Shown here: positions 1 through 38,232 of the stretch, one piece after another | How the letters are laid out: each line of letters starts with the position of its first letter | How positions within the stretch are numbered: the first letter of the stretch is position 1 | NCBI RefSeq assembly: GCF_019645835.1 | Contig: NZ_CP080998.1 | Location: 1,612,001 to 1,676,000, forward strand | DNA: 64,000 nucleotides | Direction: 5' to 3' | DNA from: Mycolicibacterium holsaticum DSM 44478 = JCM 12374 | Lineage (GTDB): Bacteria; Actinomycetota; Actinomycetes; Mycobacteriales; Mycobacteriaceae | Notes under the pieces: model-generated | The model's database searches: none | Seen by the model: only the letters and a program-made list of their open reading frames with translations | What the model was told of the DNA's origin: nothing | Made by a program: the position numbers and the translations under genes

Positions 1-294
1 GAACACCGTTTCGGCCCGGTGCTTTTCAAAGAGATACTGGCACAGCACTTCTCTGCGTCCAGACCACACAAGGACGAATGGACCGACCATCCGGTCATCG
101 TCTTGCTGGTCGGTGAACTCGAGCGTGCCCTGCGCGACGGTGAAGTCCATCGGGAGGTCGACGCCTTCTACAGCGCGACATTCTTTCTGCTCGGCATCTA
201 CGGAGTGCTCACCACGACGGACAACCCGCTCACCCGCAAGACGATGCTGGCCAAGTTGGTCTCGACCGCCGTGCGCGGCTTGGAAGTGCGATGA
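1..294 (+). CDS. TetR-family regulator, C-terminal part (5' end outside window)
   Basis: The frame is open from the first base and ends at a TGA at 292-294, so about 98 C-terminal residues of a longer protein are visible. The segment is helical and ends with a hydrophobic stretch (FFLLGIYGVL) and a basic tail, as in TetR ligand-binding and dimerisation domains. The DNA-binding N-terminus is not in the window, so the family call rests on the tail alone. It is co-directional with the membrane-protein and P450 run that begins 42 bases downstream, which makes it a plausible local regulator. An internal GTG at 19 could be mistaken for a start, but the open frame upstream argues against it. Confidence 0.5.
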   Translation, partial: EHRFGPVLFKEILAQHFSASRPHKDEWTDHPVIVLLVGELERALRDGEVHREVDAFYSATFFLLGIYGVLTTTDNPLTRKTMLAKLVSTAVRGLEVR

Positions 295-336: not shown

Positions 337-444
337 GTGTGGGCATGGATCTGGGAGATATTGCGCTACGTCGCGGCGTGGGGCGGGGCGGCGCTCGTCA
401 TCTGGTTCTGGTACTGGATGTTCTCCAGCCTGGGCACGTTCTAG
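337..444 (+). CDS. 35-aa tryptophan-rich single-span membrane miniprotein
   Basis: A GTG start lies 6 bases after a GAGGAG ribosome-binding site at 325-330, and the frame closes with TAG at 442-444. The predicted peptide has 35 residues, six of them Trp, and is one hydrophobic helix (core AALVIWFWYW) with a single Glu and Arg near the N-terminus. The next gene starts 7 bases later, so it looks like the first cistron of the VWA/AAA operon. I do not recognise a family. Its size, composition and position suggest a small subunit or assembly factor of a membrane complex. The good ribosome-binding site and tight spacing are the main reasons to call it real. Confidence 0.6.
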   Translation: MWAWIWEILRYVAAWGGAALVIWFWYWMFSSLGTF

Positions 445-451
445 GGCAGCG

Positions 452-1987
452 ATGAGCGAGCTGTCCGACGCGCATGCGCTGGTCGTCGAGCGCAGTTGCG
501 CCGTCACCGCTGTCGCGCTGAGCGGCCAACGCCGCGAGGGGGTGCGCCTGGTGACCGGTGAGCATCGCCAGTTCAGCCTGAACCCGGGATTGGATCACGT
601 GCTGGTGCCGTATCCGTCCCTGGCGCGTGACTGGACCCGCAGGACGCTGACGTGCGGTGTCGCGCTGCAGTGTTCACCGTCCAAGGAGCGGCTTGCCCAC
701 TACCGGCTCAACGAACTCACCGCGCGCGAACTTCGCGCGCTCACGCTGGTGGAAGCCGCCGTCGCATTGGGCTGGGTCGCGGCCAACTGGCCCGGCCTGG
801 TGGTAGAAGCGCGGCGATTGCTGCCCGATCTCGAGATGCTACCCGACGACATGACGGCCGACGCGATGCTCGAACGCGCGATCTCGTTGTCGCGCAACGG
901 CCAGCCGGTCGGCGACGTCCCGGGTGTGGTGGGCAGGCTGCCGCTGGCGTACACGGTGCCGCAGGGCCTGTCGGACAAGCTACGGCGCAGCTTCGGCCGG
1001 ATGCCGTGGACCACGACGCAGAAGCGGCTGCCGCGGCCGTACTCCGTTCCCGTCGGCGGCGACGGGGGAGTCCGCAACCCCAACCTGCCGCCACCCAGCC
1101 GCCCCCAGGACAACGACCTCGATCTCACCCCGGAGCACCGGCCCGGCATTCCCTATCCGGAATGGAACGCCTGGACAAAGAGTTTCATGCGCGATCACGT
1201 CGCGGTTCTCGAACGCGCTCACACCAGCCGCAACCGCCAACCCGGGGTGGTTTCGGCCGACCTGCGCAAGTGGTTCGAGGAGCACACCCACCGCGCGATG
1301 AAGAGCCGCCTCGAGGACGGCTCCGACCTCGACGTCGAGCAGTATGTGAACCACTACATCGACCTCACCACCGGCGAGGCGATCGAACCGCGCATCTTCC
1401 GCGAACTGCTGCCCGCCAGCCGCGACGTCACGACCGCCCTGCTTCTGGACGGCAGTTCCTCGCTGGGCGTGCACGGCGGAAAGGTCTTCAAGCTCGAATT
1501 GGCCTGCGCTGACGCACTGTCGAGGGCGATGACGCTGGCGCGGGAACGACACGGCATCTTCGTGTTCACCGGGAACACCCGGCACCGCGTCGAGGTCAAC
1601 TGCCTGAAGGACTTCGAGGATCGGCGCTTCGTTCCGCCCAGTCGGCTCGGCCTGTCGACCGGTGGCTACACCAGGCTCGGAGCACCGTTGCGACACTTGA
1701 CCAGCCGGCTGCTGGCGCAGCCGTCCGAACGTCGCCTGCTGATCGTGATCGGCGACGGGCTGATCTCCGACGAGGGCTACGAAGGACGCTACGCGTGGGC
1801 CGATGCCGCGCACGCGGTCGAGGAAGCCAACGACGCGGGCGTCTCGATGTACTACGTCGGCGTCGGGCCGACCCGCGTCGACCCGCTCCCGGAGGTCTTC
1901 GGACCCCGCCGGTCCCAACGCATCCGGCGCGTGGAGGACCTGCCCGGGGTGCTTGCCCACGTCCACCGCGAACTCGTCGCCGCCTGA
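452..1987 (+). CDS. NorD/CbbO-like VWA-domain protein
   Basis: This 511-aa protein has a C-terminal von Willebrand A domain. It shows a complete MIDAS: DGSSS at residues 333-337, the Thr of GGYTRLGAPLRH, and the Asp of IGDGLISDEG. The string YEGRYAWADAAHAV resembles the NorD end-motif. In known systems NorD or CbbO works with a NorQ/CbbQ AAA ATPase to remodel a client, inserting metal into nitric oxide reductase or reactivating RuBisCO. The matching ATPase is the next gene, but neither client is present. The ATG at 452 is chosen over an upstream in-frame start at 113, because the region before 452 carries the miniprotein gene. GGGCAGC just upstream could serve as a weak ribosome-binding site. 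Confidence 0.85.
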   Translation: MSELSDAHALVVERSCAVTAVALSGQRREGVRLVTGEHRQFSLNPGLDHVLVPYPSLARDWTRRTLTCGVALQCSPSKERLAHYRLNELTARELRALTLVEAAVALGWVAANWPGLVVEARRLLPDLEMLPDDMTADAMLERAISLSRNGQPVGDVPGVVGRLPLAYTVPQGLSDKLRRSFGRMPWTTTQKRLPRPYSVPVGGDGGVRNPNLPPPSRPQDNDLDLTPEHRPGIPYPEWNAWTKSFMRDHVAVLERAHTSRNRQPGVVSADLRKWFEEHTHRAMKSRLEDGSDLDVEQYVNHYIDLTTGEAIEPRIFRELLPASRDVTTALLLDGSSSLGVHGGKVFKLELACADALSRAMTLARERHGIFVFTGNTRHRVEVNCLKDFEDRRFVPPSRLGLSTGGYTRLGAPLRHLTSRLLAQPSERRLLIVIGDGLISDEGYEGRYAWADAAHAVEEANDAGVSMYYVGVGPTRVDPLPEVFGPRRSQRIRRVEDLPGVLAHVHRELVAA

Positions 1988-2020
1988 CCGACACCCAATC
2001 TGAGGGAGCCCGAACCGCCG

Positions 2021-2824
2021 ATGACCACCGACACCTACTACTCGAACGGCAACGAAATCGAGTTGTTCGAGCAGGCGTACCACCGGCGACTGCCGGTCAT
2101 GCTCACCGGGCCGACCGGGTGCGGTAAGACGCGGTTGGTCGAGCACATGGGCGTGCTGCTGCGCCGACCGGTCGTCACGATCAGCTGCCACGACGATCTG
2201 ACGAGTTCGGATCTCGTCGGCCGGTTCATGGTCACCGGAGGTGACGTGGTGTGGACCGACGGACCGCTGACCCGCGCGGTCAAGGCCGGCGCGATCTGCT
2301 ACCTCGACGAGGTGGTCGAAGCGCGCCACGACTCACTTGCCGTGCTGCACTCGCTGACCGACCACCGACGCACGCTCTACCTCGACCGGGCCGACGAAGT
2401 CGTCCAAGCGCCGGAGACGTTCATGCTGGTGTGCTCGTACAACCCCGCCTACCGAAGCTCGCTCAAGGAACTCAAGCCGTCGTTTCGGCAGCGGTTCGTC
2501 ACCCTGCCGATGAGATATCTCCCGCCCGACCGCGAGGCCGAGGTCATCGTCGCCGAAACGGGCATACCGCTGCCGGCCGCGAGCCGGCTGGTCGCGTGCG
2601 CCACCGCCATCCGCACCGCCGACGAGGCGTTTCATTTCGAACCGCCCTCGACCCGTGTCCTGGTCACCGCCGCACACCTGATCGCCGCGGGCGCGACCGA
2701 ACTGGATGCCGCCGAGGCCTGCATTCTCGCGCCGTTGTCCAGTGATGGCGCGGTCACCGACGGCCTGCGCGAGGTGGCGGTGGCCAGTCTGGCCGGTGCA
2801 GACAACTCGAGCACCCCGCACTAG
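2021..2824 (+). CDS. MoxR-type AAA+ ATPase, NorQ/CbbQ/NirQ subfamily
   Basis: This 267-aa ATPase has Walker A GPTGCGKT at residues 30-37 and Walker B CYLDE at 93-97. It also has a conserved SYNPAYRSSLKELKPSFRQR segment that carries the sensor and arginine-finger region. Length and motifs fit the NorQ/CbbQ subfamily better than the longer MoxR1-type proteins. Members hydrolyse ATP as hexamers and act with a VWA partner on a protein client. The partner is the gene immediately upstream, 33 bases away. The next cistron is a membrane miniprotein 12 bases downstream, which suggests a membrane-embedded client. Family assignment is firm; the client is unknown. Confidence 0.88.
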   Translation: MTTDTYYSNGNEIELFEQAYHRRLPVMLTGPTGCGKTRLVEHMGVLLRRPVVTISCHDDLTSSDLVGRFMVTGGDVVWTDGPLTRAVKAGAICYLDEVVEARHDSLAVLHSLTDHRRTLYLDRADEVVQAPETFMLVCSYNPAYRSSLKELKPSFRQRFVTLPMRYLPPDREAEVIVAETGIPLPAASRLVACATAIRTADEAFHFEPPSTRVLVTAAHLIAAGATELDAAEACILAPLSSDGAVTDGLREVAVASLAGADNSSTPH

Positions 2825-2836
2825 GAAGGAATCCCC

Positions 2837-2965
2837 ATGGATCCCAAGGAGAAGCAGCGCAAGAAGGCGCTCATCATTCTGCAGATCGTCATCTACGGCT
2901 ATCTGCTGGCGATGTTCCTCATCCAGCTCTACATGTCGTTCGAACGCGGATGGTGGTCGCTGTGA
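2837..2965 (+). CDS. 42-aa single-span membrane miniprotein
   Basis: The ATG at 2837 follows a strong AGGAAGGA site at 2823-2830. The 42-residue product has a lysine-rich N-terminus (DPKEKQRKKA), one hydrophobic helix (LIILQIVIYGYLLAMFLIQL) and a short tail ending FERGWWSL. By the positive-inside rule the N-terminus should be cytoplasmic. Its stop overlaps the GTG of the next gene (GTGA, 2962-2965), so translation of the two is probably coupled. No family is recognised. Like the 35-aa protein at 337 it flanks the AAA/VWA pair and may be a small subunit of the same membrane complex. Confidence 0.75.
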   Translation: MDPKEKQRKKALIILQIVIYGYLLAMFLIQLYMSFERGWWSL

Positions 2966-3645
2966 GCGCTACGGCCACCGTCAGCCTCGAGGATCACCAC
3001 GAAGAATCCCGGCTCGCTCAACGTCGAGCCGACAAGTGGATGATCGCGGGTGCCGCGCTGATGGGCATGTGGGCACCGGGCCTGATCGGGTTCCCGATCT
3101 TCATGCGCGGCGTCTGGCTGCAACGTCAGGCTGCCCGCGCCGGCCTGTCGGTCCGGCCGATGATCGTGACCCTCATCGGATACCTGGTGTTGATCGACGG
3201 CATGCTCAACAGCCTGGGCTGGGCGCTGGACCTGGTCGCCAACCACACGTTGATCAACCGGGTGTTGATGATCGGCTGGGGCCACATGTTCGACGCCGCC
3301 TACTTCTGGCACTACAACGAGCCCTGGGTCGGTGGGTCTGCGGTGCCCGGCGAAAAGGCCTATGTCGCAGGGCTGATCCTCACCGTGTTCGCCATGCGGT
3401 GCGCGGCGGCGATCGGCTTTTTGCAGATGAAGCGGTGGGGCCACCAGTGGATGATCATCACCTGCTGGATGGGCGTGGTGATCTGGTGCGCATACGTGTT
3501 CAACATGACGATGTACGCCGACGTCCGTTACGCCGGGGTCCTGTTCCCGGTCATCGGGTGGTGGCTCTACGACATCTTCTACATAACGCCGTTCCTGGCG
3601 ATCCCGTACCTACACACGGTCAACCGCGAAATCTTCTCCGACTGA
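2962..3645 (+). CDS. Polytopic membrane protein of unknown family, His-rich
   Basis: The predicted 227-aa protein has about five to six hydrophobic segments, around residues 27-48, 60-82, 118-140, 147-168 and 174-198. Starting at GTG 2962 gives a four-base stop-start overlap with the miniprotein; an in-frame ATG at 2950 would overlap more. Histidines and acids cluster between helices in [17 protein letters not shown], with further His in RWGHQW and YLHTVNRE near the C-terminus. That arrangement could bind metal, though this is inference. I considered an AveC-like spirocyclase and a PmoA/PmoC-like subunit and could not support either. Its place directly after a NorQ/NorD-like pair makes it the likeliest client. 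Confidence 0.7.
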
Positions 3646-3664
3646 ACAGGCTAAGGAGTACCTC

Positions 3665-4105
3665 ATGACGTCACCATCGGATTCGTCGGCCACCGACGAA
3701 AAGGACCCCGCCGAAGATCTGCCCCCCGGCACGACGCCGTATTACGCGCGGATGCACAAGTACATCAAGCGCGCGGTGCTCGTCTGCCTGATCGCCCTCG
3801 TCATCGAGGGGGCTTTCACGTTGCCGTTCATGGCGGTGTGGTACGGCTATCCGACGCTGAGCCTCACCGAGATCTGCAGCGGCCTGCTCAAGGTCCGCTA
3901 CTCCGACGACACCCTCGAGTGCAAGGTTCCGTATCCGGTGCTTGGTCCTCCGGAAGGTGCCGAGGGCAAGGACACCGCCCGCGACGAGTGGGGGATCCAG
4001 CCCGTGCCTAAGTACGAGCGGATCGGGTTCCGCGAGCTGGTGCGCATCCACGAGGAAAGCGAAGCGCGCAAGGCCGCTCAGCAGCAAGAAGATTCGGCTC
4101 AGTGA
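3665..4105 (+). CDS. Single-span membrane protein, unknown function
   Basis: This 146-aa protein has a polar N-terminus of about 35 residues, one hydrophobic helix at about 36-58 ([19 protein letters not shown]) and a soluble C-terminal part of about 85 residues with two Cys (TEICSGLL and LECKVPYP). The ATG follows AAGGAG at 3654-3659. Its TGA overlaps the GTG of the P450 (GTGA at 4102-4105), tying the membrane genes and the P450 into one operon. The two Cys could form a disulfide if the C-terminal part is outside the membrane, but orientation is not certain. No family is recognised. Confidence 0.7.
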
Positions 4106-5325
4106 GTTCAAAGCCGCCCGAGCAGCACGCGCGCAACTGGGACTTGCGCCACGCGGATTTCAACGACAACGGCTTCCTCTACGACGTCTACGCGGTGATG
4201 CGGCGGACGTCGCCGTTCGCCCACACCGATACGCCGTTTCTCAGCGCGACCCCGGGCGGGGCCTGGGTCGCGGTGCGCTACGAGGAGTGCTACCGGATCC
4301 TGCAGGACTGGCAGCACTTCTCCAGCAACCCGACACCGGAGGCAAGCGAGCAACTGGCGGGCGATCTGGTCATCACCCTGGATCCCCCGCGCCAGCAGAA
4401 GTTCCGCAAGGTGCTCAACCCGTACTTCTCACCCGCGCGGATGAAGGCGCTGCGTCCGCAGATCCGCGAGGAGACCGACCGGCTGATCGACGGTTTCATC
4501 GAAGCGGGAAGCGGTGACCTCGCCGATGTGGCGTGGCGCCAGCCGGGAATCGTCTTCTTCAAGTATGTCCTCGGCATGCCCATCGAAGACGTGCCGCTGT
4601 GCGTCGAGCTCACCGACGCCGCGCTCAACGGGGACACCGAGGAAACCCGGATGGCCGCCTGGGGCGGGCTGTATCAACACCTGCACGACGGGGTGAGCGA
4701 ACGCGCCACCCAGCCGCCGCGCGACGACATGATCGACGTGCTGCTGACGGCCGAGATCGACGGGGAGCGGCTGCCGTTCGGCGACGTGGTCGCCAACGCC
4801 ATGCTGCTGGTGCAGGCCGGGCTCGAAACCACCGCCAGCGCTATGTCATTCGCGTTTCACTACCTGGCAACCCATCCCGAGGAGCGCGACCGCCTCATCG
4901 CCGAACCGGAGATCCTGGGCCGCGCGGTCGAGGAGTTCATCCGCTTCGGCGGGTCGATCCACGGCATTCCGCGCACGGTCGCCAACGAGGTCGAACTGAA
5001 CGGGCAGACGTTCTGCCCCGGTGAATCGGTCATCGTCAACTACGCGTCGGCCAACCGCGACGAACAGGTGTTCCCGGATGCGGACCGGTGCGTCCTCGAC
5101 CGCCGAGAGAACCGGCATCTCGGGTTCGGCGCCGGCGTTCACCGCTGCCTCGGATCAAACCTCGCCCGCCTCGAAATGCAGGTCGGCCTCGAACAGGTGT
5201 TGGCGCGGATGTCCGACCTGCGCCTGGACGCGAACCGCGAGCCGCACTTTCACGGAAGTTCCGTCACCCGAGGGTACCGTTCGGTGCCCGTGGTTTTCGC
5301 ACCAGCGCAGCGGTCCGTGGCATGA
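4102..5325 (+). CDS. Cytochrome P450
   Basis: This 407-aa soluble bacterial-type P450 has the I-helix oxygen-activation motif AGLETTAS, the ExxR motif EFIR in the K-helix, and the haem loop [10 protein letters not shown] with the axial Cys at residue 349. P450s of this class insert oxygen into hydrophobic substrates and need a ferredoxin and reductase, neither of which is encoded in this operon. The GTG start overlaps the upstream TGA by four bases. The TGA here overlaps the ATG of the following DapB-like gene in the same way. The order of oxygenase then dehydrogenases suggests that an alcohol made by the P450 is handled by the next genes. CYP family is not assigned. Confidence 0.93.
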
Positions 5326-6371
5326 CCTACCGTGTCGTGCAGTGGACGACGGGCAACGTCGGCAAAAGATCCGTGCGTGCGGTCGCGCTCAACCCGCAGT
5401 TGGAGCTCGTCGGCTGCTACGCGTGGTCGAAGGACAAGGTCGGCCGCGATGCCGGAGAACTGTGCGGCATCGAGGCTTTGGGCGTGGCCGCCACCGACGA
5501 CGTCGATGCGCTGCTGGCACTCCAGCCCGACTGTGTGGTGTATAACCCGATGTTCGCCGACGTCGACGAGATGGTCAGAATCTTGAGCGCGGGCATCAAC
5601 ATCGTGTCCACCTCGGAGTTCATCACCGGCCATTTCCTCGGTGAGGGCCGCGACCGCATTCTCGACGCGTGCCGAATGGGCGGATCGACCGTCTTCGGCA
5701 GCGGGGTCAACCCCGGCTTCATCCAGCTCTTCGCGATCGTGTCGGCCGGCCTGTCGGAGCGCGTGGAGAAGGTGAGCGTCACCGAGGCCATCGACACCAC
5801 GATCTACAACTCGCCCGCCACCGAAAAGCCGATGGGCTTCGGCTATCCCATCGACCAGCCCGACCTGCCTGCCATCACCGAGAAGGGTTCGGCCATCTTC
5901 GGTGACGGTGTCCGCCTGGTCGCCGACGCACTCGGTGTCGAACTCGACGACGTGCGCTGCGACGTCGCGTATGCCCAGACCACCGAGGACCTACACCTGC
6001 CCGGCGACTGGACGATCGCCAGGGGTTGTGTCGCCGGCGTCGACGTCGGCTGGAAGGGAATCGTGGCCGGCAAAGAGGTCATCGAGATCCGCGGCCGCTG
6101 GCGCAAGGGCCAGACACTGGATCCGGACTGGGAACTGGACATGGGCTACACCGTCGAGGTCCGCGGCACCCCGACGATCAGGACCACGCTGAGCTTCCTG
6201 CCGCCCGCCGACTTCGTCGGCGAAACGTTGGACGACTACATCATGCTGGGATTGTCGATCGTCGCGATGCCCGCGATCACGGCGATCCCGGCCGTGGTGG
6301 CGGCGCCTGCAGGCATCGCTACGTATAACGATCTGCCACTGCTACTTCCGCGGGGAGTCCTCAATGTCTGA
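5322..6371 (+). CDS. DapB-like NAD(P)-binding oxidoreductase (first of tandem pair)
   Basis: This 349-aa protein opens with YRVVQWTTGNVGKRSVRAV, a Rossmann glycine motif of the dihydrodipicolinate-reductase type. Such proteins in actinobacteria are usually annotated as DapB-like or amine-dehydrogenase-like without a known substrate. A central segment (GSGVNPGF) and an alpha/beta C-terminal domain follow. It is much longer than true DapB (about 245 aa), so a role in lysine synthesis is unlikely. The ATG at 5322 forms an ATGA overlap with the P450 stop; a longer in-frame ATG at 5088 lies inside the P450 gene and is rejected. The next gene is a homologue of it. Confidence 0.85.
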   Translation: MTYRVVQWTTGNVGKRSVRAVALNPQLELVGCYAWSKDKVGRDAGELCGIEALGVAATDDVDALLALQPDCVVYNPMFADVDEMVRILSAGINIVSTSEFITGHFLGEGRDRILDACRMGGSTVFGSGVNPGFIQLFAIVSAGLSERVEKVSVTEAIDTTIYNSPATEKPMGFGYPIDQPDLPAITEKGSAIFGDGVRLVADALGVELDDVRCDVAYAQTTEDLHLPGDWTIARGCVAGVDVGWKGIVAGKEVIEIRGRWRKGQTLDPDWELDMGYTVEVRGTPTIRTTLSFLPPADFVGETLDDYIMLGLSIVAMPAITAIPAVVAAPAGIATYNDLPLLLPRGVLNV

Positions 6372-7416
6372 GAAAACCTACCGGGTCATCCAGTGGATGA
6401 CAGGCGACGTCGGCCAGGTCGGGGTGCGGCATTTCGCCCAGTGCCCGGTCTTCGATCTGGTCGGAGTCCTTGTGCACGACAAGGACAAGGTCGGCAAGGA
6501 CGCCGGGGAGATCGCGGGCATCCCGCCGACCGGGGTGATCGCCACCGACGACGTCGAGTCGATGATCGCTATGGACGCCGACTGCGTGTTCTACACACCG
6601 GTGATCATGGACGTCGACACCGTGTGCCGACTCCTGCGCTCCGGAAAGAACGTCGTCACGACGAGCGGCTTGTTCTATCCCACAGACGATTTCCGTGAGC
6701 CGGGGGACAAGGTCCGCGCCGCGTGCCAGGACGGCGGGACGTCGTTTTCCGCAGGTGGCATCCACCCCGGGTATGCGGGCGACATCTTGCCGCTCACCCT
6801 CGCCCGCGTCGTCAGCCGGATCGACAGGATCCAGGTCTACGAAGTCGTCAACGTCCTCACCGACGCACCCCTGGACCACATCGACTGGATGGGCTTCGGC
6901 AAGGACCGCGACAAGTTCCTTTCCGAACCAACCATTCTGGGCCTCGGCGTGTCTTTTTTCGCCCAATCCATGCACATGGTCGCCGACGGCGTCGGGGTGC
7001 ACATCGACGAGGTGAAAGCCGATCTGCGCGCGGCTGTTTCGACCGATGACATACCGCACGAACTGGGTGCCATCCCGCGCGGCACCGTGGCCGCCCAGCA
7101 CCACGAGTGGACAGCTTGGGCCGACGGCAAGCCGCTGATCGTCTACCACGCCATCTATCTGACCGCGGGCCCCGACAAGCTGGATCCGCCGTGGGACTGG
7201 GGCAAAACCCGCTACCGCATCGTGATCGAAGGCGACCCGCCGACCGAACTGACCCTCCAGGGTGTAGACGGGCCGGACGGCACCATGGTCCATCCGGGCT
7301 ACGACTGGACCGCGATGGGCGCCATCAACACGATCCCCGACGTCTGCGATGCCCCGCCGGGCTGGCTCACCCATCACGACCTCGGCCTGGTTCGACCGCG
7401 AGGTCTGGTGCGCTGA
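6364..7416 (+). CDS. DapB-like NAD(P)-binding oxidoreductase (second of tandem pair)
   Basis: This 350-aa homologue of the preceding gene shares the N-terminal pattern (YRVIQWMTGDVGQVGVRHF), the HDKDKVGKDAGEIAGI segment that matches SKDKVGRDAGELCGI in its neighbour, and the AGGIHPGYAGDI centre. It starts 8 bases inside the end of the first copy. Two diverged copies side by side could be two steps of a pathway or a heteromer. The last residues (PRGLVR) resemble the PRGVLNV end of the first copy, so both are full length. Substrate unknown. The flanking P450 genes suggest oxidation or reduction of a hydroxylated lipid or terpenoid intermediate. Confidence 0.85.
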   Translation: MSEKTYRVIQWMTGDVGQVGVRHFAQCPVFDLVGVLVHDKDKVGKDAGEIAGIPPTGVIATDDVESMIAMDADCVFYTPVIMDVDTVCRLLRSGKNVVTTSGLFYPTDDFREPGDKVRAACQDGGTSFSAGGIHPGYAGDILPLTLARVVSRIDRIQVYEVVNVLTDAPLDHIDWMGFGKDRDKFLSEPTILGLGVSFFAQSMHMVADGVGVHIDEVKADLRAAVSTDDIPHELGAIPRGTVAAQHHEWTAWADGKPLIVYHAIYLTAGPDKLDPPWDWGKTRYRIVIEGDPPTELTLQGVDGPDGTMVHPGYDWTAMGAINTIPDVCDAPPGWLTHHDLGLVRPRGLVR

Positions 7417-17468: not shown

Positions 17469-17887
17469 TGGCCTCCGCGCAGGACAGCCCGGTCCGCGTC
17501 CTGGTCGCCAAGCCCGGTCTGGACGGCCATGACCGCGGCGCCAAGATCGTCGCACGCACCCTGCGTGACGCCGGCTTCGAGGTGATCTACACCGGGATCC
17601 GGCAGCGCATCGAGGACATCGTCTCGATCGCGCTGCAGGAAGACGTTGCACTGGTGGGCCTTTCGATCCTGTCGGGCGCACACGTGGCGCTGACCGCGCG
17701 CACCGTCGATGCGTTGCGGGCGGCCGACGCAGGCGACATCGCGGTCGTGGTGGGCGGCACCATTCCGCAGGGTGACGTGCCCAAGTTGCTCGAAGCCGGT
17801 GCGGCTGCGGTGTTTCCCACCGGGACGGCGCTGGACACGCTCGTCGACGAGGTGCGCAAACTGACCTCGGAACGAGTAAGCGAATGA
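17468..17887 (+). CDS. Acyl-CoA mutase small subunit, cobalamin-binding
   Basis: This 139-aa stand-alone B12-binding domain carries the base-off/His-on motif DGHDRG (Asp 19, His 21, Gly 24), then LSILSGAH and VGGTIPQGD. It binds the lower face of adenosylcobalamin and completes the mutase encoded just upstream. The ATG shares one base with the upstream TGA, so the subunits should be made in equal amounts. The size matches small subunits of isobutyryl-CoA-type mutases. The chaperone MeaB is encoded 10 kb downstream at 27444, in the same gene group. Confidence 0.93.
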   Translation: MASAQDSPVRVLVAKPGLDGHDRGAKIVARTLRDAGFEVIYTGIRQRIEDIVSIALQEDVALVGLSILSGAHVALTARTVDALRAADAGDIAVVVGGTIPQGDVPKLLEAGAAAVFPTGTALDTLVDEVRKLTSERVSE

Positions 17888-17940
17888 CCGCGGGCCCTGC
17901 TCGCCGGGGATCATTTACTACGTCACGGGGAGAGGGTTAG

Positions 17941-18897
17941 ATGCGGCTCGGTGTGATGATCGGGGCCGAGCGCGGCGATATGGCGCGCAAGGTCAAGAAG
18001 TTGCTCGACGACATCGAGTGGGCCGAGGCCGCCGGACTGGACACCGCGTGGATGCCCCAGGTGCCCAACGACTTCGACTGCCTGACCATGGTGACCTTGA
18101 TGGGCGGACGCACCTCGCGCATCGAGTTGGGCACGGCCGTCGTCCCGCTGCAGGCGCAGCACCCGATCGCGCTGGCGCGCCAGGCGCTGTCCGTGCACGC
18201 CGGGATCGGCGGCCGGTTGGCGCTGGGTGTGGGGCCGTCGCACCACTGGATCGTGCGCGACATGCTCGGCATCCCTTACGAGCGGCCCGCCGCCTACACC
18301 CGCGACTATCTCGAGGTGCTCAACGCCGCGCTGGCCGGGCCCGGTGACGTCGACGTGGACAACGACACGTTCACCGTGCACAACCCGACCGTGCTCGGCG
18401 CCGAGTCGCCGATGCCGGTGCTGGTGGCCGCGCTCGGGCCGGTGATGCTGCAGATCGCCGGTGAGCGCGCCGACGGGACCGTGTTGTGGATGGCCGACGA
18501 GAAGGCCATCGGTGAGCACATCGCGCCGAAGATCAACAAGGCGGCCGCGGAGGCGGGTCGTCCGGCGCCGCGCATCGTCGCCGGAATTCCGGTGTGCCTG
18601 TGTGCGAATTCGGAGATCGACGCGGCGAAGGATCGAGCGAACCGGATTCTGGCCGAGGCGGAGACGTCACCGAACTACCAGCGGCTGTTGGACCGCGGCG
18701 ATGCGCGCGACGTCGGCGACCTGTGCGCTGCCGGCGACGAAGACGCCATCCTTGCGCGCTTCAAGAAGTTCGCCGACGCCGGAGTCACGGACCTGTCGGT
18801 GCGGTTGTTGCCGATCGGGGACAACCGCGACGAGCTGATCGCGTCGAAATACCGGACGCGCGAGGTGATCGCGGAACTGGCCAAGGCTGTGCGATGA
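17941..18897 (+). CDS. LLM-class F420-dependent oxidoreductase
   Basis: This 318-aa luciferase-fold protein has the typical opening RLGVMIGAERGD, the strand MPQVPNDFDC and a GGRLALGVGPSHH motif near residue 90. Mycobacterial members of this length usually bind F420 rather than FMN, but the cofactor is not proven by sequence. The ATG follows GGAGAGG. Its TGA overlaps the first ATG of the 32-bp repeat chain that leads into the CoA-transferase. Its place between mutase and CoA-transferase suggests a redox step on a CoA ester or the corresponding acid. Confidence 0.88.
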   Translation: MRLGVMIGAERGDMARKVKKLLDDIEWAEAAGLDTAWMPQVPNDFDCLTMVTLMGGRTSRIELGTAVVPLQAQHPIALARQALSVHAGIGGRLALGVGPSHHWIVRDMLGIPYERPAAYTRDYLEVLNAALAGPGDVDVDNDTFTVHNPTVLGAESPMPVLVAALGPVMLQIAGERADGTVLWMADEKAIGEHIAPKINKAAAEAGRPAPRIVAGIPVCLCANSEIDAAKDRANRILAEAETSPNYQRLLDRGDARDVGDLCAAGDEDAILARFKKFADAGVTDLSVRLLPIGDNRDELIASKYRTREVIAELAKAVR

Positions 18898-20473: not shown

Positions 20474-21871
20474 GTGAGTGAGCCGACCGCGCTCGTTTTC
20501 GAGGACCGCGAGTACACCCTGCCTGAACTCGATGATCTCGCTGCCGCAATGGCGGGGGCCCTGGAACGTCGCGGGGTAGCGGCCGGGCAGCGCGTCGCGC
20601 TGATGTCGTCCAACCGGCCCGAGTTCGTCATCGCACTGCGGGCCATCTGGGGACTGGGTGCGGCCGCGGTCCTGCTCAGTCCGGCATGGCGGCGCGGGGA
20701 GGTCGAACACGCGCTGGCGTTGACGGCGCCGACGCACGCGGTGGGCGACCATCCGGTGCTCGGCGAGTTGATGCCGATGTTGCACCTCGACGAGCCGCTC
20801 ACCCCGCAGCGACGTGCGCTTGTGTCACCCGCGCCAGAATCCGACGCGCTGTTCGTGTTCAGCTCCGGCACCACCGGCATGCCCAAGGCGGTGCGGCATA
20901 CCCACGGCGGTTTCGCCGTCGCCGTGCGGCACTGGCGCGACGCCCTCGGGCTGTCGGCGGCCGACCGGATGCAGATCATGACGCCGCCGTCGCACATCTT
21001 GGGCCTGCTGAACATCGTGATGGCCCTGGACACCGGGGCGTGGATCCGGCTGCACCGCCGGTTCGACATCGATGCGATGTTGGCGCACATCGAATCCGAT
21101 CGCATCACCGTCGAGATGGCTGTCGCGCCGATCGCGCTGGCGCTGGCCGCCCATCCGCGCCTGGACTCCTACGATCTGTCGTCGCTGCGCTACATCATGT
21201 GGTGCGCTACCCCGGTCACCGCAAGTGTCGCCGAAGCCGTCGCGGACAAGGCCGGGGTGAATTGGGTAACCGCCTACGGAACCAGCGAGTTGCCGGTCAT
21301 CTCGGGTAATTCGCTGGAAGGTGCGCGGCTCGACACCGTCGGGCGGCCGGTACCCGGGGTCGAGGTGCGCATCGTCTCGCTGGAGGACGGCGCGCTGTTG
21401 GCGACCGGTGAGGTCGGGGAGATCCAGGCCCGGTCGGATTCGGTGATGGCCGGCTACCTTCCGGATTCGGCTACGGCGCAGGCATTCTCGGACGGCTGGT
21501 ACCGGACCGGCGACGTCGGCTATCTCGACGACGCCGGCTGGCTGCGCATCACCGACCGGGCCAAGGAGATGATCAAGGTGCGTGGTTTTCAGATCGCCCC
21601 CGCCGAGATCGAGGGCGTCTTACATGGACACCCCGCCGTCGAGGACTGCGCGGTGTTCGGGGTGCCCGACCACGCCAACGGCGAGGCCGTGATCGCGGCC
21701 GTCAAAACGTGCGGCACGGTCAACGCCGACGAGTTGATCGCGTTGGTCACCAATTCTCTTGCGTCGTACAAGCGGCCGAGCCGGGTGGAGTTCGTCTCGG
21801 AGATCCCGCGGTTGCCATCCGGAAAGGTATTGCGTCGAGTGCTCAAGGAGCGTCTGTGGACGTCCGTCTGA
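20474..21871 (+). CDS. Acyl-CoA synthetase / AMP-dependent ligase
   Basis: This 465-aa ANL enzyme has P-loop SSGTTGMPKAVRHTH, the hinge region ITDRAKEMIKVRGFQIAP and catalytic Lys in LPSGKVLRRVLKE. It is shorter than typical FadD proteins (500-550 aa) but all core motifs are present. The start is GTG at 20474. It heads a rightward operon (ligase, two acyl-CoA dehydrogenase subunits, crotonase) controlled by the 20397 palindrome. Its stop lies 16 bases inside the next gene. It should supply the CoA ester that the dehydrogenase then oxidises. Confidence 0.9.
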   Translation: MSEPTALVFEDREYTLPELDDLAAAMAGALERRGVAAGQRVALMSSNRPEFVIALRAIWGLGAAAVLLSPAWRRGEVEHALALTAPTHAVGDHPVLGELMPMLHLDEPLTPQRRALVSPAPESDALFVFSSGTTGMPKAVRHTHGGFAVAVRHWRDALGLSAADRMQIMTPPSHILGLLNIVMALDTGAWIRLHRRFDIDAMLAHIESDRITVEMAVAPIALALAAHPRLDSYDLSSLRYIMWCATPVTASVAEAVADKAGVNWVTAYGTSELPVISGNSLEGARLDTVGRPVPGVEVRIVSLEDGALLATGEVGEIQARSDSVMAGYLPDSATAQAFSDGWYRTGDVGYLDDAGWLRITDRAKEMIKVRGFQIAPAEIEGVLHGHPAVEDCAVFGVPDHANGEAVIAAVKTCGTVNADELIALVTNSLASYKRPSRVEFVSEIPRLPSGKVLRRVLKERLWTSV

Positions 21872-22671
21872 CAAGTGAACAGCAACAGCTGCGCGAGGCC
21901 GCAGCCAAACTGGCCGACGACCTCGGTCCCGGTTCGGTCGCCGACCTCGACGACAACAGCCGGCGTGCGCGGCTGGAAAAGGCGGTGGATGCCACCGGCT
22001 TTCGCACGCTGCGCTCGGACGGCGCGTCCGGCGTCGAGGTGGCCGTCGTCGCCGAGGAGTTCGCCCGCGGGCTGGTCGACGTGCCGTTCATCGGACGTGT
22101 GCTGGCCGATGACCTCAGCCGCCGCCTCGGCAGGGAATGGTCGGCTGCGGGCGCGCAGGCCAGTACCGTCGACCTGACGAAAGCGCTTGCCGGGGTGGTC
22201 GAGTCACCCGCGCAGCTGGCGGACCTCGACGACGAGAACGCCATCCGCTGGCGCGCGTTGGCGCTCACCGTCACGTGTGCGGATCTGGTCGGTGCGGCCC
22301 GCGGCACGCAGAACCTGGCTGTCGAGTACGCCAAGGTACGCGAACAGTACGGTGCGACGATCGGGTCCTATCAGGCGGTCGGTCACCTGTTGGCCGAAGC
22401 GCTGGCGCTCATCGAGGGGTCGATCAGCGTGCTGCGTCATGCGGCGTGGGCCGTCGACGAGTTGCCCGCCGCCGAGGCGGTCGAGGCCGCCCGGGTCGCC
22501 AAGATCTACTGTGCGCGTGCGGCGCTGACCGTATGCGAGACGTCGATCCAGGTGCACGGAGGCATCGGCAACACCTGGGAATGTCTTGCCCACGTGTACC
22601 TGCGGCGGGTGCTGGTCGCCACCGAGACGTGGCCTGTCAAGCTGGAGGAGCTGTCCATTGGACTTTCGTGA
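21856..22671 (+). CDS. Acyl-CoA dehydrogenase, small subunit of heteromeric type
   Basis: This protein is about 271 aa from GTG 21856, which follows AAGGAGC at 21845. A longer frame from 21709 lies inside the ligase gene and is rejected. It keeps C-terminal ACAD features (REQYGATIGSYQAVGH and VHGGIGNTWE), but the N-terminal domain is short compared with the usual 380 aa. In mycobacterial sterol side-chain breakdown such short FadEs pair with a second FadE as alpha2-beta2 enzymes. The next gene overlaps it by 14 bases and is the expected partner. Confidence 0.85.
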   Translation: MDVRLTSEQQQLREAAAKLADDLGPGSVADLDDNSRRARLEKAVDATGFRTLRSDGASGVEVAVVAEEFARGLVDVPFIGRVLADDLSRRLGREWSAAGAQASTVDLTKALAGVVESPAQLADLDDENAIRWRALALTVTCADLVGAARGTQNLAVEYAKVREQYGATIGSYQAVGHLLAEALALIEGSISVLRHAAWAVDELPAAEAVEAARVAKIYCARAALTVCETSIQVHGGIGNTWECLAHVYLRRVLVATETWPVKLEELSIGLS

Positions 22672-23746
22672 TTCACCGGAGGAAGCCGCGTTCCGCGTCC
22701 GGTTGCGCGACTGGCTGACCGAGCAGAAGGGCAGGTTCCCGACGTCGGGGGACGAGTACTGGGCCGCCCAGGGCGCCTGGCATCAGGCGTTGTATCGGGC
22801 CGGCTTTTTCGGGACGTCGTGGCCGAAGAAGTACGGCGGACAGGACCTTCCGCCGGTGTACGACGTCATCGTCGACGAGGAGATCGCCAAGGCCGGCGCA
22901 CCCGCGCGGCCCAGCCTGGGATACCTCGTCGTGGGGCTGTCCCACCACGGCAACGAGGACCTGCGGCAACGGTTTCTGCCGGGCATGATCAACGGCACCG
23001 AGCGGTGGTGCCAAGGCTTTTCGGAGCCCGGCGCGGGATCGGATCTGGCGTCGCTGACCACCACCGCCTTGCGCGACGGCGACGAGTACGTGATCTCCGG
23101 GCACAAGATCTGGACCAGCTACTCCGACGTCGCCGACTGGTGTCTCGTCCTGGCCCGCACCGACAGAGACGTCCCGAAGCACAAGGGAATCTCGGCGTTC
23201 ATCGTCTCCATGCATCAGCCGGGCATCGAGCAGCGGCCGCTGAAGATGATCAGCGGCGTCACCAAGGAATTCGGTCAGGTCGGTTTCGACGGCGCCCGGG
23301 TGCCCGCCGACCAGATGGTGGGCGAGCCCGGGGACGGCTGGAAACTGGCGATGACCGTGGTCAGCCACGAGCGCGAGCCGTCGACGCTGGGCTTCTCGGC
23401 GCGGTACGGAAAGCTGGTCCGCCAGTTGGCCTCCCGAGTCGACGGCGCGACGCCCGAAGAGCTGTCCTGGGCCTGGGTGCAGACCGAGATGCTGCGGTTG
23501 CACGTGCGCAGGCGGTTGTCGGAACAGCTCGACGGCATCACCCACGGACCCCAGGGGTCCCTCGACAAGCTGCTGATGACCTGGGTCGAGCAGTCCGTCG
23601 GCCACGCCGCGCTGGCGACGGTCGGCACCGACGACCAGGAGCTGTTCGGTGCGTACATGTACAGCCGGGCGCAAAGCGTCATGGGCGGTACCTCACAGAT
23701 TCAGAAGAACATCATCGCGCAACGCATTCTCGGATTGGGGTCCTGA
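22658..23746 (+). CDS. Acyl-CoA dehydrogenase, large subunit of heteromeric type
   Basis: Starting at TTG 22658 (GGAGG at 22644-22648) gives 362 aa. FAD-binding features GFSEPGAGSDLASL and GHKIWTSYSD are present. Where homotetrameric medium-chain enzymes carry the catalytic Glu (YEGTSQIQ), this protein has VMGGTSQIQ. The base must therefore come from elsewhere, as in IVD-type or heteromeric FadEs; the Glu in SHEREPS is a candidate. It is translationally coupled to the small subunit and followed by a crotonase, consistent with beta-oxidation of a ring- or branch-bearing acyl-CoA. Confidence 0.88.
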   Translation: MDFRDSPEEAAFRVRLRDWLTEQKGRFPTSGDEYWAAQGAWHQALYRAGFFGTSWPKKYGGQDLPPVYDVIVDEEIAKAGAPARPSLGYLVVGLSHHGNEDLRQRFLPGMINGTERWCQGFSEPGAGSDLASLTTTALRDGDEYVISGHKIWTSYSDVADWCLVLARTDRDVPKHKGISAFIVSMHQPGIEQRPLKMISGVTKEFGQVGFDGARVPADQMVGEPGDGWKLAMTVVSHEREPSTLGFSARYGKLVRQLASRVDGATPEELSWAWVQTEMLRLHVRRRLSEQLDGITHGPQGSLDKLLMTWVEQSVGHAALATVGTDDQELFGAYMYSRAQSVMGGTSQIQKNIIAQRILGLGS

Positions 23747-24513
23747 TGTACGACATGCCAGACGAAATCGATGTTCAAGCCGACGGTGCATTGCGCATCA
23801 TCACGCTGAACCGGCCCGACGACTTGAACGCGGTCAACGACGCCCTACACGTCGGGCTCGCGCGGCTCTGGGAGGCGCTCAACGAGGATGCCGACGCGCG
23901 CGCGGCGGTGATCACCGGCGCAGGCAGAGCCTTCTCGGCTGGTGGTGACTTCAACTACCTCGACGAGCTGCGCAACGACGAAGCCTTGCGCCAGAAGACG
24001 ATCAAACACGGTCGCGACATCGTGATCGGCATGGTGCGCTGCCGCATGCCGGTGGTCGCCGCGGTCAACGGTCCTGCGGTCGGGCTGGGCTGCAGCCTCG
24101 CGGCGCTGTCCGACGTCGTCTACATCGCCGACGGCGCGTTCTTCGCCGACCCGCACGTCTCGATCGGGCTCGTCGCCGCCGACGGCGGTCCGCTCGTATG
24201 GGGTTCGCAGATCAGCCTGCTGCAGGCCAAGGAGTTCGCGCTCACCGGTGTGCGGATCAACGCCCAGCGTGCCGTCGAACTCGGTATGGCCAATCACGTG
24301 GTCGAGGATCCGCTGGCCGAGGCCATCGCGTGCGCCAAGAAGCTGATCGAGCTTCCGCGCCAAGCCGTGGAGGCCACCAAGCGCCTGATGAACCTGCAAC
24401 TGGAGAAGTCGGTGCTCGCGTCGCTGGATTACGCCAACCTCGCCGAATACGTGTCGTTCGGCACGACCGACTTCAACAAGATCGTCGACGGGCTGATCGC
24501 GAAGAACAACTAG
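23746..24513 (+). CDS. Enoyl-CoA hydratase/isomerase family (crotonase fold), atypical
   Basis: This 255-aa crotonase-fold protein has the oxyanion-hole segments FSAGGDFNYL and GPAVGLGCSLA. The two catalytic Glu of true enoyl-CoA hydratases are not found. The first position is in GCSLAALSD, and the second, normally PE, is PH in FADPHVSIGL. It may therefore be an isomerase, hydrolase or lyase rather than a hydratase. ATG 23746 shares one base with the dehydrogenase stop. It is the last gene of the operon and faces the convergent SDR genes across an inverted-repeat region. Confidence 0.85.
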   Translation: MYDMPDEIDVQADGALRIITLNRPDDLNAVNDALHVGLARLWEALNEDADARAAVITGAGRAFSAGGDFNYLDELRNDEALRQKTIKHGRDIVIGMVRCRMPVVAAVNGPAVGLGCSLAALSDVVYIADGAFFADPHVSIGLVAADGGPLVWGSQISLLQAKEFALTGVRINAQRAVELGMANHVVEDPLAEAIACAKKLIELPRQAVEATKRLMNLQLEKSVLASLDYANLAEYVSFGTTDFNKIVDGLIAKNN

Positions 24514-24524
24514 CCGCTTTTCTT

Positions 24525-24696
24525 CGCGAGCGTGCGTGTCTGCGGCCGACCCGCCGAAGTTTCTGCCGAGTTTGCGCACGCTCGATAACAACGCGTTTCG
24601 TGGCGCACTTAGGGTTGCTCCGCAACTCCTGCGCAGTGAGCGTGCGCGAAATCGCGTCATTCCGCGGCGTGTCCGCCTCAGACACGCACGCTCGCG
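24525..24696. repeat. Nested inverted repeats between convergent genes
   Basis: Perfect 18-bp arms CGCGAGCGTGCGTGTCTG (24525-24542) and its complement (24679-24696) enclose 136 bases. A second perfect pair, GCGCACGCTC at 24574-24583 and GAGCGTGCGC at 24638-24647, sits inside. All four share the core GAGCGTGCG. The element fills the gap between converging genes, so it may fold in RNA as a bidirectional terminator, but no T-tract follows. The rest of the gap has no reading frame I would support. Confidence 0.85.
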
Positions 24697-24700
24697 GCGG

Positions 24701-25441
24701 TCAGAAGGTGAGGGCTTCGGAGCGCTGGACGGTGCCGGTGATGCCGGTGGCGTCCTGCTGGGCCAGTCGCACCGCGGCGTTGGCCATCGCTTCGGGCGGT
24801 TCGACCATCTCGGGCGGTACCTGCATCCCGCCGCCGCCGGCCTGCCACCCCTCGGTCAGCACCACCCGCGACGGGGACAGGCAGTTCACCGCGATGTTGT
24901 CCGGCGCCAGATCGGTTGCCAATCCCCGATATAACCGCTCCACGGCGGCCTTGGACACCCAGTAGGCGTTGGACCCGTGCTCGATCATGTCGACGCCGGT
25001 GGTGGTGATCGCGATCAGCGAACCACCGCCGCGGGCGCGCACGTGCGGGATGACGGCCTTCGTCACCAGAAAGACACCGGTCAGGTTGACGTTGAGGCAC
25101 AACTGCCACTGCTTGAGCGGCGTCGACTCGATCGGCCCCAACCACAGCACACCGGCATTGGCGACCAGCACGTCGATCCCGCCGAACTCTGAAACCGTTG
25201 CCGCCACGGCATTCTCGACCGACTCCTCGCTGGTGACGTCGCACTGCACCGGCAACGCGCATCCGCCCGCCGCCGTGATCCGTTCGGCGACCGCATGAAT
25301 CGTGCCAGGAACCTTGCCTTCTTGCTCGGTGCGCGCGGCAACGGCGACGGCGGCCCCTTGCCGGGCGAGCGCAGTGGCCACCGTCGCGCCGATGCCGCGG
25401 CTGGCGCCGGCGACGAACGCGACCTTGTCGGCCAGGGTCAT
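24701..25441 (-). CDS. SDR family oxidoreductase
   Basis: This 246-aa classical SDR has GASRGIG near residue 12, VANAG and active-site YWVSK. The sequence GKVPGTIHAVAERI after the second strand resembles the same region in the SDR at 14850, so both may belong to the HSDL-like subgroup. The start at 25441 lies 7 bases after the upstream SDR stop and has only a weak ribosome-binding site; a longer frame to 25531 would overlap that gene. The pair of SDRs would oxidise hydroxyacyl-CoA intermediates of this gene group. Confidence 0.85.
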   Translation of the reverse strand: MTLADKVAFVAGASRGIGATVATALARQGAAVAVAARTEQEGKVPGTIHAVAERITAAGGCALPVQCDVTSEESVENAVAATVSEFGGIDVLVANAGVLWLGPIESTPLKQWQLCLNVNLTGVFLVTKAVIPHVRARGGGSLIAITTTGVDMIEHGSNAYWVSKAAVERLYRGLATDLAPDNIAVNCLSPSRVVLTEGWQAGGGGMQVPPEMVEPPEAMANAAVRLAQQDATGITGTVQRSEALTF

Positions 25442-25448
25442 TGCCGGA

Positions 25449-26213
25449 TCATTTCGGTGGGAATCGCAACGCTCCATCGAGGCGAATGATCTCGCCGTTG
25501 AGGTAGTCGTTTTCGACGATGCTCTGCGCAAGCTGCGCGTACTCCGTCGACCGGCCCATCCGCTTGGGGAACGGCACCTGCGGACCCCAGTACTGCTCCA
25601 GCTGGTCGGCCGCCTGGCCGTAGGCGGGCGTGTTGATGGTTCCGGGCGCGATGGTCACGACGCGGATACCGAGCGGCGACAGGTCGCGGGCCGCGTTCAA
25701 CGTCATGCCGATGACGCCGCCCTTGGCCGCGGCATACGGTAGCTGGCCGATCTGCCCTTCATAACCGGCGATTGAGGCGGTGTTCACGATGACGCCGCGG
25801 GCACCCTCCTCGAGCGGTTCGGTCCTGGCGATCGCCGCCGCGCTCAACCGCATGATGTTGAACACCGCGGTCAGGTAGTACTTGATGGTGGTTTCGAAGG
25901 CGTCGAGCCCCAGCGGGGAACCGTCTTTGCCGACCAGCCGGCCACCGCCGGCGGGACCGCCGTGGGTGTCCACCGAGATGCGCAGCGGCCCCAGCGACTC
26001 CGCTTCGGCGATCGCGGCGAGCACCGAGTCCTCTGAGGTGGCGTCGGTGGGCACATACCGCACGCCGAGTTCCTTCTCCAGTGCCTTGCCCTTGTCGTCG
26101 GCGAGGTCGGCGACCACGACCTTGGCCCCCGCACCGTGTAGGCGCCGAACCGTTGCCTCACCGAGGCCACCCGCGCCGCCGACCACCATCGCCGCGCTAC
26201 CTGCAATTTGCAT
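25449..26213 (-). CDS. SDR oxidoreductase, HSD10-like 3-hydroxyacyl-CoA dehydrogenase
   Basis: This 254-aa SDR has GGAGGLG at the cofactor site, NTASIAGYEGQIGQ with the catalytic Ser, and YAAAK. This pattern, with TINTPAYG later, is typical of 17-beta-HSD type 10 / 3-hydroxyacyl-CoA dehydrogenases. ATG 26213 is preceded by AAGGGGAA. It diverges from the thiolase gene across the palindrome at 26251, so the dehydrogenase and thiolase steps of one beta-oxidation round should be co-regulated. Confidence 0.88.
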   Translation of the reverse strand: MQIAGSAAMVVGGAGGLGEATVRRLHGAGAKVVVADLADDKGKALEKELGVRYVPTDATSEDSVLAAIAEAESLGPLRISVDTHGGPAGGGRLVGKDGSPLGLDAFETTIKYYLTAVFNIMRLSAAAIARTEPLEEGARGVIVNTASIAGYEGQIGQLPYAAAKGGVIGMTLNAARDLSPLGIRVVTIAPGTINTPAYGQAADQLEQYWGPQVPFPKRMGRSTEYAQLAQSIVENDYLNGEIIRLDGALRFPPK

Positions 26214-26250
26214 ATGGTTCCCCTTCTTGCAACTGGCACTCTCGAACTGA

Positions 26251-26265
26251 GAGAATAACATTCTC
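26251..26265. promoter_or_regulatory. Palindromic operator GAGAAT-N3-ATTCTC
   Basis: GAGAATAACATTCTC has arms identical to those at 20397, with a different 3-base centre (AAC instead of ATC), so the arms are what is conserved. It is 38 bases upstream of the SDR start and 27 bases upstream of the thiolase start, in a promoter-like AT-rich patch. This is the strongest evidence for a shared regulator of the 13-28 kb gene group. Confidence 0.75.
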
Positions 26266-26291
26266 ATACTCGCTCGAAACGGAGACACTTG

Positions 26292-27431
26292 ATGCCTGAA
26301 GCCGTGATCGTTTCTGCGCTGCGCACCCCCATCGGCACCGCGGTGAAAGGCACGCTGCGCGACACCGACGCCTACCAGCTGGCCGAGCACGTGGTGGGCG
26401 CCGCGGTTGGCGAGCTGGGCGCACATCCAGTCGACGACGTGGTGCTCGGCGAGGGGCTCTACGGCGGCGGCGTCGTGGCCCGGCACGCGGCGATCACCGC
26501 GGGGCTGACCGAGGCACCCGGGCTCGCGGTCAACCGGCACTGCGCGGCGGGTCAGGCCGCTGTGCAGGGTGCGGCGGCCAGCATCCGCGCGGGCATGGAC
26601 CAACTCGTCATCGCCGGCGGCGTCAACTCCGCATCCACATCGCCGAGGTTCACGCGCCGGGCCGGAGAGGACTGGGTCGACTGGTTTCCGCCCACGCATC
26701 CGAACCGGCCGGACGCCCCGAACATGGACATGTCGATCACCGTGGGCTGGAACGCCGCGGTCAAGGCGGGTGTCAGCCGCGCCGAGATGGACGAATGGGC
26801 GCTGGGCTCGCACCGCAAGGCGATTGCGGCGATCGACGAAGGCCGGTTCAAGCACGAGATCGTGCCCATCGAGACTGCGCACGGCCTGTTCGACACCGAC
26901 GAACATCCACGCCGCGACACCAGCCTGGAGAAGCTGGCTGCGCTCAAACCGCTGCACCCCGAGATCGAGGGGTTCTCCATCACCGCGGGCAACGCCTGCG
27001 GCGCCAACGACGGTGCCGCGGTGCTCGCGATCGCCAGCGATCGCCTCGGCCTGCCGGCTCTGGCCACCGTGCGGTCGTGGGCATCGGTCGGCGTCGACCC
27101 GGCGTCGACCGGGCTCGCGCCGGTGGAGGCGATTCCGAAAGCGCTTGCCCGGGCCCGGCTTTCCCTTGCCGACGTCGATGTCTTCGAGATCAACGAGGCG
27201 TTCGCGTCGATGTGCGTGGCCACGATGAAGTTGCTCGACATCGACCCCGACCGCGTCAACGTCAGCGGCAGCGGTTGCTCACTGGGTCATCCGGTGGCCG
27301 CCACCGGTGCGCGGATGCTCGTCACGCTCGTGCATGAGTTGCGCAGGCGCGGCGGCGGTATCGGGGTCGCCGCGATGTGCGCGGGCGGCGGGATGGGATC
27401 GGCCACGGTGATCGAGGTCCCGACGCCGTAG
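26292..27431 (+). CDS. Thiolase (acetyl-CoA C-acyltransferase)
   Basis: This 379-aa thiolase has the acyl-accepting Cys at residue 84 (NRHCAAGQ), the His motif GSGCSLGHPVA and the second Cys in AAMCAGGGMGSA, so it should be catalytically competent. ATG 26292 follows GGAGAC; an overlapping TTG at 26289 is less likely. The usual NVNGGAIALGHP is NVSGSGCSLGHP here, a feature of degradative mycobacterial thiolases rather than biosynthetic ones (from general knowledge). MeaB follows 12 bases later. Confidence 0.93.
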   Translation: MPEAVIVSALRTPIGTAVKGTLRDTDAYQLAEHVVGAAVGELGAHPVDDVVLGEGLYGGGVVARHAAITAGLTEAPGLAVNRHCAAGQAAVQGAAASIRAGMDQLVIAGGVNSASTSPRFTRRAGEDWVDWFPPTHPNRPDAPNMDMSITVGWNAAVKAGVSRAEMDEWALGSHRKAIAAIDEGRFKHEIVPIETAHGLFDTDEHPRRDTSLEKLAALKPLHPEIEGFSITAGNACGANDGAAVLAIASDRLGLPALATVRSWASVGVDPASTGLAPVEAIPKALARARLSLADVDVFEINEAFASMCVATMKLLDIDPDRVNVSGSGCSLGHPVAATGARMLVTLVHELRRRGGGIGVAAMCAGGGMGSATVIEVPTP

Positions 27432-27443
27432 ACTGCCGAAGCG

Positions 27444-28325: not shown

Positions 28326-28332
28326 CGGGTGG

Positions 28333-29949: not shown

Positions 29950-29977
29950 CGGTAGCTCCTTTCGGCTGCCGCGGTTC

Positions 29978-30745: not shown

Positions 30746-30856
30746 CACCACTCCTGAGAGTGATGCTCTGACTATAGTGCACGTAGGTGTGCGATAAATG
30801 AGCAAAGTGCTTACAAATTCCGAGGATTCGGTTTTCCCATCGAGAGAGGCACCAGC

Positions 30857-36044: not shown

Positions 36045-36062
36045 AGATCGAAAGGTAACCAA

Positions 36063-37394: not shown

Positions 37395-37397
37395 CCG

Positions 37398-38216: not shown

Positions 38217-38232
38217 CGACGAGGGACGAGTA

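Follow-up and report, generated by a model that had tools for sequence, protein, structure and literature searches.

Machines of the NorQ/NorD type are understood for very few clients. For nitric oxide reductase (NOR), the best-studied client, the mechanistic passages of PMC13036017 propose that NorQ twists NorD, with a finger of NorD held in the ring and a linker that stretches, thereby opening NOR for iron. A related activation, in which CbbQ/CbbO frees RuBisCO from inhibitors, is described in part of PMC9976466. Here we analyzed a pair of this kind in Mycolicibacterium holsaticum (genome of 5.62 Mb), located at bases 337-4105 of a stretch of 64,000 nucleotides, hereafter the window. Six genes on the plus strand encode, in this order, a miniprotein (mini35), a NorD-type protein with a von Willebrand factor A (VWA) domain, a NorQ-type ATPase, a second miniprotein (mini42), the polytopic membrane protein TM6 and the single-span protein TM1, and a P450 gene follows. 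All six reading frames named in a previous sequence-only reading of this DNA are present. We consider it rather probable (about 0.6) that these genes encode one membrane enzyme complex with its own NorQ/NorD activator.

The ATPase gene (2021..2824) adjoins the gene of its VWA partner (452..1987), and both proteins agree with their earlier description as an intact NorQ-type ATPase and an intact protein with a metal ion-dependent adhesion site (MIDAS). The ATPase possesses the Walker A and Walker B motifs and scores 123.9 bits for AAA_5 (cut-off 22) and 72.7 bits for CbbQ_C (cut-off 20.6) in Pfam. Its PDB match to NorQ (E-value of 1.9e-74) spans most of its length, and it also matches the CbbQ-type structures 6l1q and 5c3c. 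In the VWA protein the MIDAS is complete, comprising D333-x-S-x-S (D333, S335, S337), T407 and D435 when the motif is defined as DxSxS-T-D following the corresponding passage of PMC13036017.

Relatives of TM6 (2950..3645) were found in 285 stretches of the genome collection, from which the best 80 were kept, so that this set leans to close relatives. In 78 of the 80 loci the six genes are consecutive, with no other queried gene between them; the two exceptions are L043, which starts at a contig edge, and L068, where the match to the VWA protein comes in two parts. A TM6 paralogue, TM6′, precedes mini35 in 79 of the 80. Along the strand of TM1, with no limit on distance, the first queried gene to follow is P450-like in 27 loci, resembles a diaminopimelate (DAP) dehydrogenase in 36 and is another gene in seven, while ten loci have none. 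The P450 with which the sequence-only reading ended the operon is thus present (4102..5325, plus strand, Pfam p450), but it is an accessory gene outside the conserved core. We further sampled 121 genomes of the family, by which we mean the Mycobacteriaceae in the wide sense, where the closest named relatives at this locus, Mycobacterium and Mycolicibacterium species, place the window. TM6 occurs in 12 of them, and ten of these 12 carry the module in the same order; in L124 copies of TM6 lie on both sides of mini42, and in L121 the VWA gene is truncated by the contig end. A single TM6 is seen in four of the 12 genomes (L115, L120, L122, L125). In a genome of another class, G121, homologues of TM6, the VWA protein and the ATPase lie together with three short single-span open reading frames (ORFs) in a different order. 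These ORFs resemble TM1, mini35 and mini42; a weak sequence match was obtained for mini35 (40%, E 0.1) and for neither of the others, so the likeness to TM1 and mini42 is one of architecture alone.

The association is equally apparent in a genus sample of 198 genomes, which was searched for the TM6 family at E ≤0.001 and for TM6-type NorQ at E ≤1e-100. TM6 was detected in 108 genomes and NorQ in 103, all of which also hold TM6, while 90 genomes have neither (Fisher p 5.8e-51, not corrected for relatedness); the co-occurrence of pair and polytopic protein, which had been put forward as a check, is hence complete from the side of NorQ. TM6 without NorQ was seen in five genomes, namely G508 (84% complete), G531, G562, G608 and G654, the matches in the latter two being weak (E 7.6e-4 and 3.6e-8). 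For distances, 154 TM6 rows were entered (150 among the matches listed and four others, in an order favouring copies like TM6″, a distant homologue treated below). At least 95 of 105 NorQ matches have such a row within 5 kb; seven of the other ten are in genomes without an entered row and three in genomes with TM6 only on another contig. Conversely, 122 of the 154 rows have NorQ within 5 kb, and 30 of the remaining 32 belong to genomes holding NorQ elsewhere; the threshold of 1e-100 would let weaker NorQ genes beside any of these 32 unlinked copies escape. TM6 relatives therefore mostly adjoin the pair, and the reverse situation, homologues usually found without it, was not encountered. Synteny and co-occurrence counts rule out chance neighbours, and they strongly support the earlier proposal that the pair attends to a local client; that it matures this client is what we infer.

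TM6 is, on this analysis, likely the client. One might instead suppose that the pair serves a different protein, be it the P450 or some distant client, with TM6 sharing the operon by co-regulation only; both the P450-like neighbours in the 27 loci and the existence of unlinked TM6 copies could be read in this way. The other 53 loci, however, have a different queried gene next in line or none at all, which makes the P450 an unlikely client, and the strict co-occurrence with TM6 together with the reshuffled order in G121 renders any such explanation highly improbable.

The two miniproteins of 35 and 42 amino acids, mini35 (337..444, with a GTG start) and mini42 (2837..2965), each have a single membrane span. 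They are real genes: the median ratio of non-synonymous to synonymous polymorphism (pN/pS) is 0.335 for mini35 (26 loci with a full-length match) and 0.312 for mini42 (79 loci). In each of the 12 loci shown, mini35 ends in GTF and TM1 (3665..4105), a conserved single-span protein with a long tail, keeps two Cys in this tail. We infer that these small membrane proteins form a complex with TM6.

TM6 itself had been described as a five- to six-span, His-rich protein starting at 2962. It is indeed polytopic, with about five spans, but the later GTG at 2962 was replaced by the ATG at 2950, and with seven His (and 13 Trp) among 231 residues the term His-rich does not fit. Across 42 sequences D83, N87, D115 and E135 are invariant and position 121 is mostly His or Asp; the invariant polar residues sit in or near membrane helices. 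A first structural model was poor (predicted local distance difference test, pLDDT, of 69.3), and its fold comparison did not list the human sterol isomerase known as emopamil-binding protein (EBP), which appeared once the model was built from a deeper alignment, with the sigma-2 receptor as second structural match. TM6 thus probably adopts an EBP/EXPERA-like fold rather than a new one, so that the earlier view of the client as a new membrane enzyme holds for a membrane client, which synteny supports, but probably not for its fold. By offset within the aligned ranges only, D83, N87 and E135 fall near the catalytic residues of EBP (His76, Glu80 and Glu122). The EXPERA profile PF05241 gave no match for the TM6 of the window and reached up to 23.4 bits in its relatives, under the cut-off of 25.7; among the 121 family genomes, the 28 matches listed all lie away from the TM6 place, and the match of one genome exceeds the cut-off. 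A relation to EBP was not recovered by sequence either: of the profile searches of the PDB with TM6, one returned two matches that look like chance hits, at E 0.049 and 0.62, and another returned none, and hhalign against five bacterial EBP-like proteins gave 0.3 and 0.4.

The pair had been called an orphan, a term that no longer applies, since the pair is one clade of a family that is linked to TM6 or to AveC-like proteins (PF17198). The host genome holds three other NorQ/VWA pairs. Two lie beside AveC-like membrane proteins (L091:4400-8143 and L092:4353-9257, the latter with a Peripla_BP_6 protein in between), and one, of the TM6 type, is directly upstream of an operon that is mce-like by eye (L090:6486-8938, G000:C1:1440485-1442937). 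The same genome encodes TM6″ (L096:8111-8830), which is 37% identical to TM6, has no adjacent pair and finds its best other match in the genus sample at 42% identity. In the 61-genome family sample and the family members of a 396-genome phylum sample, 18 of 35 CbbQ_C matches lie within 5 kb of an AveC-like gene, 12 within 5 kb of TM6 and five near neither, these being the mce-linked pair, two weak matches, a 114-residue frame and a fragment with a stop; chance would predict 0.27 such linkages for the 32 matches in genomes with an entered size. Viewed from the membrane proteins, NorQ lies within 5 kb of 22 of the 25 TM6 matches and of 20 of the 44 AveC-like matches (G055 and G121 included). The three TM6 exceptions are the contig end in L121, L122, which is outside the NorQ sample and has an adjacent ATPase, and the TM6″ of the host itself. 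AveC loci with a pair show two constant orders, AveC-NorQ-VWA and VWA-NorQ-gap-AveC. A CbbQ_C fragment with an internal TGA (G150:C1:757225), in a relative without a TM6 match, is perhaps a decayed pair. Outside the family, 26 of the 28 CbbQ_C genomes in the phylum sample lack any AveC-like or TM6 match, the exceptions being G055 and G121; the linkage is hence not a general rule.

The two kinds of pairs also differ in their VWA proteins. The window protein matches NorD in the PDB (E 2e-30) from residue 214 to residue 510 only, that is, to the C-terminus, and this comparison, which was by sequence only, found no PDB NorD match for residues 1-213. For this N-terminal part, matches were obtained in the G121 homologue (E 6e-17) and in the mce-linked pair (E 2e-22); neither of the two AveC-linked VWA proteins compared matched it (best E 0.43). 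Because it matches TM6-type pairs and neither AveC-linked pairs nor NorD, the N-terminal domain appears to track the client, and the mce-linked pair is therefore predicted to serve TM6″, 20 kb away. A tree of 32 NorQ rows separates AveC-linked from TM6-linked proteins with a support of 100/99 and places the mce-linked pair and G121 on the TM6 side, although on long branches that leave their placement unsure; its row L066_TM61 is mislabelled, being identical to the AveC-linked pair of L153.

TM6 and the AveC-like family could not be connected by sequence. PF17198 did not match TM6, TM6″ or the G121 homologue, and hhalign gave probabilities of 7.7 (local) and 0.56 (global) for TM6 as an AveC relative, 11 for TM1 against AveC-like proteins, and 1.3 for AveC against the five bacterial EBP-like proteins. 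Near the G121 module, two similar-looking polytopic proteins (L114:6364-7218 and 17849-18661) have no Pfam or NCBIfam match, and an AveC-like gene adjoins the second.

The pair upstream of the mce-like operon, mce-like genes seen by eye a few kb from the G121 module, and the sigma-2 receptor as second structural match would suit a device for lipid binding, sensing or transfer, perhaps feeding mce-type uptake, instead of an enzyme. We regard this as improbable, given that invariant polar residues in or near membrane helices suit an active site and that the accessory genes encode oxidoreductases.

For the membrane enzyme complex we propose the following course. TM6, together with TM6′, would form the EBP/EXPERA-fold membrane protein, and mini35, mini42 and TM1 would be small subunits or assembly factors. 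The NorD-type protein would contact this complex with both its MIDAS and its TM6-specific N-terminal domain. ATP hydrolysis by the NorQ ring would then drive a twisting of the NorD-type protein that opens TM6 and its small partners. Once open, the membrane protein could receive a load, most probably a metal, or be activated. The mature enzyme may convert a hydrophobic substrate, polycyclic or polyketide-like, within a catabolic pathway that also involves P450s and dehydrogenases; this substrate class is a tentative guess based on the fold and the neighbouring genes.

Whether a metal enters is where family precedent and fold relatives disagree. NOR gains iron through NorQD, CO dehydrogenase (coxDE) is reportedly a second metal-related client of this ATPase family, and the four invariant residues of TM6 with the His or Asp at position 121 could fit a metal site. 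EBP and the sigma-2 receptor, on the other hand, function without metal, and the release of RuBisCO from inhibitors is a non-metal precedent. AveC performs spiroketalisation and dehydration, and a 2026 paper on it (PMC13303154) uses neither "metal" nor "cofactor" in its main text. Metal loading, as opposed to other remodelling, has in our estimate close to an even chance. It is possible but doubtful that the pair, with TM6 still as its client, inserts no metal and instead remodels an EBP-like enzyme already complete without one, or does no more than assemble TM6 with its small subunits. It appears unlikely that the boldest version applies, in which TM6, TM6′, mini35, mini42 and TM1 would be a multi-subunit EBP-fold metalloenzyme loaded by NorQ/NorD, the first metal carrier in its superfamily, with AveC-like proteins and their own pairs as another branch of lipid enzymes in the membrane that depend on NorQD.

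Since the close paralogue TM6′ (74% identical to TM6; G000:C1:1610932-1611633, L089:10932-11633) adjoins the window upstream, at about 1.07 to 0.37 kb before it, the gene cluster begins before base 1. TM6′ is flanked by two TetR-type genes, named by eye and not by profile; the 3′ part of one, TetR2, occupies bases 1..294 on the plus strand and starts about 0.31 kb before the window (L089:11692-12294). Further upstream follow genes that by eye encode a short-chain dehydrogenase/reductase, a DAP-dehydrogenase-like protein and an amidohydrolase. The known clients NOR and RuBisCO, already reported as absent, were not seen among ORFs of at least 120 amino acids in the 12 kb upstream, inspected by eye with no profile search for either; NOR genes were likewise not seen among the ORFs downstream to about 9 kb, again with no profile search. 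Downstream, two neighbouring genes at 5322-7416 carry DAP_DH_C and DapB_N domains, and their relatives recur beside the module in many loci. Ten proteins scanned from 20474-39225 include catabolic functions: acyl-CoA ligase, acyl-CoA dehydrogenase, thiolase, MeaB, FAD enzymes, LigB dioxygenase and a cyclase.

The literature, among the matches listed, contains no link of NorQ or MoxR with AveC or EBP-like proteins, and nothing was found on EXPERA in actinobacteria; the relevant passages of PMC9903846 and PMC4818103 concern EBP-family proteins in mycobacteria and do not mention an ATPase. Within these matches the module is undescribed. It is not categorically new, as an activator of a familiar type is combined here with what is probably a new client class. 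Nearly all such machines in the sampled family genomes line up with two membrane families, one similar to a sterol isomerase and the other to a polyketide spirocyclase, which names concrete candidate clients and makes it likely that the tiny proteins belong to a complex. Heterologous expression of AveC is described as hard in part of PMC13303154, and we raise the possibility that a missing activator is one reason.

Compared with NorQ/NorD of NOR, the locus shares a MoxR-type AAA+ protein and a MIDAS-bearing VWA protein encoded by adjacent genes, but the first 213 residues of its VWA protein are unmatched by NorD, and with no NOR seen near the window the likely client is a predicted EBP-fold protein. 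CbbQ/CbbO has an ATPase of the same subfamily (CbbQ_C), but its client RuBisCO is soluble and was not seen at the window locus. AveC-like proteins form the second family of membrane proteins that accompanies NorQ/VWA pairs in these genomes, but they show no significant sequence relation to TM6 and their pairs carry a different VWA N-terminal domain. With EBP and the sigma-2 receptor of the EXPERA superfamily, TM6 shares the predicted EBP fold; it differs from them in lacking a PF05241 match and in being accompanied by three small membrane proteins and an AAA+/VWA pair.
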